Below are positions 50,496 through 52,041 of a stretch of DNA of 64,000 nucleotides, in pieces. How positions within the stretch are numbered: the first letter of the stretch is position 1; every line of letters starts with the position of its first letter. The notes beneath the pieces were generated by a model that was given only the letters and a program-made list of their open reading frames with translations, was not told the origin of the DNA and did no database searches. The position numbers and the translations under genes were made by a program. Location of the stretch: assembly GCF_014205155.1 (NCBI RefSeq), contig NZ_JACHMX010000001.1:992001-1056000 (forward strand). The letters run 5' to 3'. This DNA is from Amycolatopsis umgeniensis. Lineage in GTDB: Bacteria > Actinomycetota > Actinomycetes > Mycobacteriales > Pseudonocardiaceae.

Positions 50496-51320
50496 ATGGC
50501 AGACCAGCGCGTCCTGATCACCGGCTCGGCGGGCATCGTCGGCACCCTGATGCGGCCGCGGCTGCGCCGTTCCGGCCGGGTGCTGCGCCTGCTCGACCTG
50601 GCAGCGCAGCCCGAAGCCTCGGGTGGCGAGGACGTCGAGCTGATCACCGCGTCGGTGACCGACCCGGAGGCGATGGCGAAGGCGTGTACCGGCGTCGACG
50701 CGGTGATCCACTTGGGCGGGCACAGCCGCGAGAACTCGTGGGAAGCCACGCTCGACGTCAACATCAACGGCACCCACACCGTCCTCGAAGCCGCGCGGGC
50801 GGCCGGCGTGCCGCGTGTGATCCTGGCTTCCAGCAACCACTCCGTCGGCTTCCGCCGCAACGACGAGGCGGGTGAAACCGGCCTCCCCGCCGACTCCACG
50901 CCTCGTCCCGACACCTACTACGGCGTCAGCAAGGCGGCCATCGAATCGCTCGGCAGCCTGTACCACTCACGGTTCGGCATGGACGTGATCGTCATCCGGA
51001 TCGGCTCGTGCTTCGAAGATCCGCTCGTCCTCGGCCCGCGCGGCCTGACCACCTGGCTCTCCCCCGACGACGGCGCCCGTCTGTTCGAGGCCTGCCTGAG
51101 CTACCCCTCCCCCGGCTACCGGCTGATCTGGGGCGTCTCCGACAACACCCGCCGGATCTACTCGCTCGCCGAAGCCGAGGAACTGGGCTACAAATCGCTC
51201 GACAACGCCGAGACCTACGCCGATCAGCTGGCGGACAGGCCGGCGCCGACCGGGGCGGCGGCGGAGTACGTCGGCGGACCGTTCTGCACCGCTCCGCTGG
51301 GGGCCTACAACCCGCTCTGA
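50496..51320 (+). CDS. udh: uronate dehydrogenase (NAD-dependent SDR/epimerase fold)
   Basis: The 274-residue extended-SDR protein has the Rossmann motif GSAGIVG (~residues 10-16), the Asp of LLDLAAQPE for NAD(H) preference, and the catalytic YYGVSK (~residue 145) with a preceding Ser in LASSNHSVGF. The last two thirds match uronate dehydrogenases, which oxidise D-glucuronate or D-galacturonate to the aldarolactone with NAD. Within this cluster it supplies the first step of the oxidative uronate route. ATG 50496 follows AAGGGG. Symbol confidence is moderate, since related epimerases share much of the fold. Confidence 0.82.
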   Translation: MADQRVLITGSAGIVGTLMRPRLRRSGRVLRLLDLAAQPEASGGEDVELITASVTDPEAMAKACTGVDAVIHLGGHSRENSWEATLDVNINGTHTVLEAARAAGVPRVILASSNHSVGFRRNDEAGETGLPADSTPRPDTYYGVSKAAIESLGSLYHSRFGMDVIVIRIGSCFEDPLVLGPRGLTTWLSPDDGARLFEACLSYPSPGYRLIWGVSDNTRRIYSLAEAEELGYKSLDNAETYADQLADRPAPTGAAAEYVGGPFCTAPLGAYNPL

Positions 51321-51330
51321 GCCGGCCGGG

Positions 51331-51466
51331 ACTCGCGTGCTCAGAGACCGCACTCGCGTGATCGGACCCGGAACTCGCGTGACTGGACGCCGCACTCAAG
51401 TGTTCCGCCCGTGATCACGCGAGTTCCGTCCCTGATCACGCGAGTTCCGGGTCCAGTCACGTGAGT
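51331..51466. repeat. 21-bp-phased ACTCGCGTG array with orientation switch
   Basis: ACTCGCGTG or a close variant begins at 51331, 51352, 51373 and 51394 on the plus strand. The reverse-complement core begins at 51416, 51437 and 51458. Both halves step by exactly 21 bp. Unit ends such as GGACCCGGA are also conserved. The array fills the gap between the convergent uronate dehydrogenase and TetR genes, and its last unit overlaps the TetR stop codon. It can fold into a large stem. Confidence 0.85.
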
Positions 51467-52041
51467 TCCGGGTCGGGCTCGACGATCGCGGTGAGGACGC
51501 GGGTGATCTGGGCCGTCAGCTGGTCAGGATCGGCTTCACGCAGTGCGGGCGTGCCGATGATCCGGCGCATCAGCCAAGTGCCCGCCAGTAAGGCCAATCC
51601 CAGCTCGGCACGTTGCCCGGCGTGATCGCCGCGCAGAGCGTCGGCGAACCGGGCGCCGACGTTCTCGAGGATCCCCTCCCGCATGATCTCCGCCGCCCTC
51701 GGATTGGCCGCCGACTTGAGCATCAGCTCGAACGGGCCGAGATGCTCGGCCTCCGGGGCAGTGCGGTCGACGAGCGCGCGGGCGGTCCGGGCGGCGAGGT
51801 CGGCCGGTTCGGTCGGGACCATCGTGGGCTGCGCAAAGGAAACGGCGACGACCTCGGTGAACAACGCTTCCTTGGAGCCGAAGTAGCGGTTGATCAGGAT
51901 CGCCGTCACGCCCGCCGCGGCCGCGATCTCACGGAGGCCGACGCCGTCGTATCCGTGGCGGGTGAACGCCGTGATCGCCGAGTCGAGAATGGCCTGCCGG
52001 GTCGCGGCCGCGTTGCGGGCGCGGGGTGTGGTGCGGCTCAT
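51457..52041 (-). CDS. TetR-family transcriptional regulator
   Basis: The 194-residue protein has an N-terminal TetR helix-turn-helix (TRQAILDSAITAFTRHGYDGVGLREIAAAAGVTAILINRYFGSKEALF, ~residues 13-60) and a helical ligand domain with PFELMLKSAANPRA. ATG 52041 lacks a ribosome site but has TAGACT ending seven bases upstream on the minus strand, so its mRNA is likely leaderless. It is divergent from an SDR gene (80-bp gap). The dyad in that gap covers both -10 boxes. It likely represses itself and the SDR; its ligand is unknown. The stop codon lies in the last unit of the 21-bp array. Confidence 0.87.
   Translation of the reverse strand: MSRTTPRARNAAATRQAILDSAITAFTRHGYDGVGLREIAAAAGVTAILINRYFGSKEALFTEVVAVSFAQPTMVPTEPADLAARTARALVDRTAPEAEHLGPFELMLKSAANPRAAEIMREGILENVGARFADALRGDHAGQRAELGLALLAGTWLMRRIIGTPALREADPDQLTAQITRVLTAIVEPDPELT

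Follow-up and report, generated by a model that had tools for sequence, protein, structure and literature searches.

The short gap between two convergent genes of Amycolatopsis umgeniensis is filled by an array of repeats that advance by 21 bp and reverse their direction half-way, which raises the question of what such an array is and what it does at the ends of genes. The first-pass annotation of this DNA (a stretch of 64,000 nucleotides, here called the window) left a terminator, a site for an architectural protein and a mobile intergenic element side by side, and knew no name for the array. We likewise found no description of a phased 21-bp array family in the open-licence literature; the accessible parts of PMC12306157, PMC3733652, PMC8355165 and PMC4679880 do not describe one. 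In this study, we show that the array of the window is a member of a family of dispersed gene-end elements, whose usual plan is a forward arm, a centre and a reverse arm.

The array in the window and its flanking genes

The whole array, as delimited by an inverted-repeat search and folds, extends over 51326..51471. Its forward arm carries three exact plus-strand copies of the core ACTCGCGTG, namely F1 at 51331..51339, F2 at 51352..51360 and F3 at 51373..51381. The reverse arm carries two exact minus-strand copies, R1 at 51416..51424 and R2 at 51437..51445, and a third, R3 at 51458..51466, which reads CACGTGAGT with one mismatch and lies within the tetR frame. Seven cores at exact 21-bp steps had been claimed: the positions are right and five of the seven are exact, but the letters at 51394, ACTCAAGTG, have two mismatches to the core. 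This element is better read as a palindromic centre, ACTCAAGTGT (51394..51403), than as a fourth forward core, and it holds the hairpin loop of the plus-strand fold. Within each arm the step is 21 bp; across the centre, from 51394 to 51416, it is 22, which puts the reverse arm 1 bp off the forward lattice. That all cores would face one side of the helix is a statement of geometry only, with a putative relevance. The signal in the window is the spacing of the cores, not their abundance; the bare 10-mer with one mismatch was found 10 times against 9.2 expected, which is no enrichment.

The forward and reverse halves form a long stem, as had been proposed. The RNA fold reaches -102.8 kcal/mol (z -8.3) on the plus strand, where F1 opposes R3, F2 opposes R2 and F3 opposes R1, and -99.9 kcal/mol (z -6.6) on the minus strand. 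No T-run terminator and no T-tract after the stem were found in 51200-51700 of the window, and Rfam returned for 51000-52000 three matches to miRNA models only, all far under the gathering score.

Gene calls and profile search place an NAD-dependent epimerase/dehydrogenase gene at 50496..51320 on the plus strand and, convergent to it, a TetR-family regulator gene at 51457..52041 on the minus strand. The left gene had been named udh; the epimerase/dehydrogenase assignment stands and the udh identity is unconfirmed, no NCBIfam equivalog scoring above its cut-off. The genes are convergent as described, but the array does not simply occupy the junction of their stop codons: R3, the final reverse core, runs into the tetR frame, and its end together with the adjacent base makes up the TGA of that gene (51457..51459, minus strand). 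A stop codon inside a core was found at 3 of the 66 gene ends that lie within 70 bases of an array in this genome. By tblastn no tetR homolog was found near udh at 29 other udh loci (about 1.5 kb on each side), so that the junction is not comparable across relatives. The window array is absent from all 26 of these loci that were read, three minus-strand loci being excluded. One udh locus (L222) holds two palindromic-type cores.

A dispersed family with a fixed step of 21 bp

The genome (9.23 Mb, one contig) contains 100 exact core pairs with a gap of 12 bases, while the reversed control has none. Widening the search to all gaps between 0 and 30 bases returned the same 100 pairs, so that 100 of 100 have a step of exactly 21 bp; ten other genomes of the genus gave the 12-base gap in 894 of 899 any-gap pairs. 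The search for 21-bp spacing in the genome and its relatives, which the first-pass annotation had proposed as a check, thus upholds the step. A chance repeat is ruled out by the 100 pairs against none in the control and by the lack of pairs at other gaps from 0 to 30. Exact cores of the same orientation at distances up to 130 bp, counted in 864 kb of the genome, lie 21 (76), 42 (26), 63 (8), 84 (3) or 105 (1) bp apart and at no other distance. From forward to reverse cores the distance is 22 + 21n in 77 of 98 cases, off by one or two in 19 and another in 2.

Around exact core pairs we found at least 66 arrays, a minimum count, as arrays that lack an exact pair came to light only in loci examined closely. 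Some have a single arm. Their spread over the chromosome is weakly uneven (KS p 0.03, 65 sites), and no conclusion is drawn from it. One array (L212:9986-10190) lies between direct copies of AGTCCTCTGGATGCG. The 66 arrays yielded 233 units with a strong 9-base core and a degenerate 12-base linker, roughly ATYRGRSVCSKV, a consensus in which core conservation is favoured because the detection of arrays relies on cores. With this bias removed by scoring the core midway between two exact cores that are 42 bp from each other, 26 of 33 cases in this genome have no mismatch, 5 have one and 2 have two; at all loci examined across genomes the numbers are 117, 19 and 6 of 142. There are 157 different linkers among the 233 units. 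Unit positions 12-13 read CA in 118 and TG in 82 of the 233, with few CG or TA, an alternation for which CpG decay might be a source.

That the array is a product of chance or a local minisatellite without wider meaning has only a very slim probability. Some distant MAGs (L085, L098) do carry 21-bp repeats of the same core with near-identical linkers, but here at least 66 arrays have diverse linkers and other species carry the same family; for the genus this explanation is already refuted.

Arrays lie at the ends of genes

Thirty of the 66 arrays lie between convergent genes, 31 between tandem and 2 between divergent genes; 2 are inside a called ORF and 1 is at a locus edge. Against the 30, 31 and 2 of the 63 classified arrays, intergenic length predicts 11.5, 31.2 and 20.3 (chi-square p 1e-10), where the background is the sequence around arrays rather than the whole genome and the genes come from a purpose-written gene caller. 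In tandem gaps, 27 of 31 arrays are closer to the 3' end of the upstream gene (medians 41 and 145 bases). The arrays are intergenic, situated at 3' ends and rare at divergent genes, which is the placement of REP/BIME elements. Random occurrence in coding sequence, which the first-pass annotation had named as an objection, was not seen (2 of 66 inside an ORF), and the phasing, whose loss in close relatives was the other objection, is kept there.

Folding and the pairing of the two arms

The fold has a z below -3 in 53 of the 66 arrays and above -2 in 10, which hardly fold. The window array and these 53 present a GC-rich hairpin downstream of a stop codon, as a canonical terminator does. Between forward and reverse arms, linkers are complementary at 7.23 of 12 positions within the same array and at 7.22 of 12 in different arrays, and 1005 of 2000 permutations reach the former value. 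In chimeras of arms from different arrays, the linkers face each other as well as in real arrays. The gain in stability of real arrays over chimeras is small (-0.630 kcal/mol per base against -0.610, sd 0.009), and so is that in the matching of cores (8.40 against 8.31, sd 0.05). Linkers brought opposite each other by the predicted fold have more letters in common than non-facing ones (7.81 against 6.92); we discount this, because the fold itself picks the facing linkers and the chimera control gives the same level. No co-evolution was seen between the linkers of the two arms.

Two origins of the units were rejected. Linkers of the same arm are alike at 7.49 of 12 positions against 7.22 for random ones, which speaks against recent tandem duplication as the origin of most units, and conversion between arms is rejected by the linker comparison.

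Exclusion and exchange with other gene-end hairpins

Convergent gaps of this genome usually contain long hairpins, which belong to several families and mostly lack T-runs, and divergent gaps rarely hold strong hairpins (5 of 116). Of the convergent gaps, 8 of the 26 that hold an array also contain a strong hairpin of another kind, against 31 of the 40 that hold no array (p 0.0003); after matching for length, p lies between 0.0014 and 0.16 depending on mask and cut-off. Tandem gaps show no exclusion, with a hairpin in 8 of 19 with an array and 50 of 180 without. Near-perfect long hairpins, mostly T-run-free, of families marked by GTGAAGGCCTCCTT, GTACATGAAGGCCCCC, CGCGTTTAGTCCTCTGGATGCGG, GTTGCGAAAGTGGC and CGTGAGTGGTAAGGACGG recur at gene ends (the window, L179-L218, L325-L334), and these families seem interchangeable.

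Orthologous slots were chosen by gene, not by array, and each search gave 15 to 30 loci from 60 genomes. Behind the gene of the ribonucleotide-reductase beta subunit (nrd beta), 16 close loci including that of this genome hold an array in 7 cases, a GTACATGAAGGCCCCC hairpin in 7 and a canonical terminator in 2; the arrays surround a GC hairpin or a palindromic centre. Of 14 more distant nrd beta loci one is cut off, and the array is absent from the other 13. The number of units at this slot tracks genome-wide array abundance (rho 0.97, n = 7, the species not being independent). At clpC, 12 of 17 close loci carry an array (one of them degenerate) after a kept terminator-like hairpin, 4 carry another hairpin and 1 neither, and none of 13 distant loci has an array. 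Some species have a module near the clpC array site (L142, L044, L285, L298 and others) that may be a toxin-antitoxin pair, which it resembles.

A third slot follows a gene labelled here by its locus, L014. In 15 genomes it holds an array in 9, is array-free with the same flanks in 4 and is too distant to compare in 2; a terminator-like hairpin is retained beside the array, as at clpC. Comparison of filled and array-free L014 sites by eye revealed no target-site duplication, the feature that accompanies the precise ends of a MITE. At L309 and L311-L319 the stop codon of the L014 gene sits in the first array unit; in the present genome a linker change from GTA to GGA removes the TAA, and the TGA of the next core ends the gene three codons later. 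Of the 17 close loci at the L199 gene, 2 are cut, 6 differ in their neighbourhood and 9 retain the right flank; these 9 hold an array in 4 cases, a perfect hairpin in 3 (each of a different family), a decayed hairpin in 1 and nothing in 1. Across the slots that were read, arrays vary in steps of complete 21-bp units or are replaced. Flank blast between loci, biased since most loci were chosen for holding the pattern, was used solely for such changes of unit number.

Among the nine L014 orthologs, mean pairwise identity is 0.975 and 1.000 for two cores and 0.690 and 0.685 for two linkers, while the coding flank reaches 0.933, the non-coding flank beyond the array 0.836 and 0.951, and random linker pairs 0.581. 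The nrd beta slot gives 0.859 and 0.963 for cores and 0.639 and 0.583 for linkers, counted on six of the seven array loci, L251 with its other centre being left out. Judged by these values, the cores and their spacing are held while the linkers turn over within a fixed pattern.

Taxonomic distribution

In a search of relatives, the core pair was present in 12 of 23 other genomes of the genus and in 0 of 16 genomes of other genera. In a sample of the family, 28 of 297 genomes had the pair, and these came from 6 of 46 genera, with this genome counted; in a sample of the phylum the only one of 396 genomes with the pair was this genome. A named scan found at least 120 stretches, and among the matches listed 105 are from Amycolatopsis, 3 from Kutzneria, 3 from Prauserella, 2 from Pseudonocardia and 7 from others. 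The linkers of the 15 non-Amycolatopsis stretches among the matches listed are unlike those of this genome. The arrays of some distant MAGs look like chance minisatellites. A Cyclobacteriaceae MAG (L109) has a 21-bp array of the same core with many cores and varied AT-rich linkers.

Copy number within the genus extends from 0 to 189 core pairs. The nearest sampled relative by three genes (G019; 97.7%, narrowly) has 2 core pairs against 100 here, and its slots are empty, replaced or shortened where other species have arrays. Gains and losses of arrays are not polarised, because a three-gene tree of 16 species failed to place this genome.

Possible function of the arrays

Placement, folding, exclusion and the exchange at slots together argue for a function at gene ends, most simply for bidirectional termination by a symmetrical hairpin. 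We therefore read the array as a modular bidirectional gene-end element, an RNA-hairpin terminator or insulator, with a probability of about 0.48. It would act between two convergent transcription units, each of which would run into the same kind of long GC-rich hairpin, made of core-core helices joined by looser linkers; this hairpin would halt RNA polymerase and cap the mRNA. Transcription of the array, termination by it and activity of the RNA hairpin, as opposed to that of a bound protein, are what we infer. After genes, arrays apparently stand in for signals that stop transcription, and among the three possibilities first named the terminator is the best supported, by placement, by the exclusion of hairpins at convergent gaps and by the swaps with terminators and hairpins at slots. 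Against RNA pairing speak the lack of a T-tract in the window, the 10 of 66 arrays that barely fold and the linkers without apparent co-evolution; nor does pairing account for the absence of steps of 20 or 22. According to the accessible part of PMC8355165, terminators without a U trail or T-run are common in some high-GC bacteria.

The chief rival, possible although doubtful, is that the phased cores bind a sequence-specific protein (a nucleoid factor, a roadblock or a protein that recruits topoisomerase); the ability to form a hairpin would then be a by-product of units in both orientations. Phased cores read by protein would explain the missing linker co-evolution, the one-arm arrays, the hairpins kept alongside and the rigid step, exact in all pairs here and nearly all in ten relatives despite the many linkers. 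The high identity of cores over linkers at a gene-chosen site (L014) and the unit number that follows genome-wide abundance at nrd beta fit as well, but the register is looser across the centre and the binding factor is putative. The architectural-protein site thus accounts better than a terminator for the strict spacing and does not by itself explain the exchange with hairpins at the same slots. A rather unlikely extension is that a family-specific trans-acting protein reads the 21-bp units at gene ends and sets the transcription boundary by coating the DNA; the length and number of arrays would follow the protein, and arrays would compete with hairpin terminators for slots. If true, this would be a new kind of gene-boundary system.

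Unlikely, too, is a selfish REP-like or MITE-like repeat that spreads and then survives after gene ends, where harm is small. The mobile element first suggested is favoured by rapid gain and loss only, that is, by sites filled or free in close species, as at L014, and by the large differences in copy number within the genus. However, a search limited to the Y1/RAYT type (PF01797) found no transposase in 60 genomes of the genus and found it in 5 of 14 control genomes, and arrays had no match in viral contigs (exact pair), plasmids or phages (blastn). The conservation of cores at orthologous sites while linkers diverge and the exclusion with other hairpins at convergent gaps also weigh against selfishness.

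Should the favoured reading as a terminator be true, the arrays would supply antibiotic-producing actinomycetes with a terminator part that is modular and bidirectional, and would record how terminators are swapped at fixed slots in nature. Both the terminator and the protein claims can be tested directly, because some close relatives have arrays and others do not.

Comparison with known systems

Iterons and operator arrays, which have a cognate DNA-binding protein, are direct repeats about two helical turns apart and in helical phase. The arrays share this spacing; unlike iterons and operator arrays, they are scattered along the chromosome at the ends of genes and in most cases have a reverse second arm. 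The hairpin families of the same genomes share slots with the arrays and are apparently interchangeable with them; they have near-perfect stems and, unlike the arrays, no phased units. T-less intrinsic terminators of high-GC bacteria, as far as they are treated in the part of PMC8355165 available, resemble the arrays in a GC-rich hairpin soon after the stop codon and in the lack of a T-run, whereas arrays consist of repeated, sequence-conserved and phased units, with linkers that are not co-evolved and sometimes with one arm. In Beggiatoaceae, short direct repeats of TAACTGA that have no known function occur between genes in many dispersed sets (PMC4679880, in part); these are dispersed as the arrays are but have a 7-base unit and lie mostly just upstream of start codons.

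The closest kind, by the accessible part of PMC3733652, are the REP/BIME elements, which like the arrays are dispersed and intergenic, lie mostly in convergent or same-direction gaps, contain inverted copies that fold and differ in presence between relatives. In E. coli, BIMEs bind DNA gyrase, and REPs of the CGTC class carry a CGTC tag and apparently have no dedicated transposase (PMC3733652, same part). Some outer linkers of the arrays read CGTC; the usual unit does not, and it is not palindromic. REPs of the RAYT type bear a GTAG tag at one end of their palindromic unit; this type was rejected, since PF01797 is missing in the 60 genomes, GTAG does not occur in the consensus of the 233 units and the core lacks palindromic symmetry. 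Unlike the REP/BIME elements of that source, the arrays have a 21-bp unit, a non-palindromic 9-base core and tandem units at a fixed step in each arm, and they occur in a genus without RAYT transposase. Binding and cleavage by DNA gyrase would mark an element as a BIME-2. A near-invariant spacing of cores combined with turnover of the linkers is unusual for a dispersed repeat.
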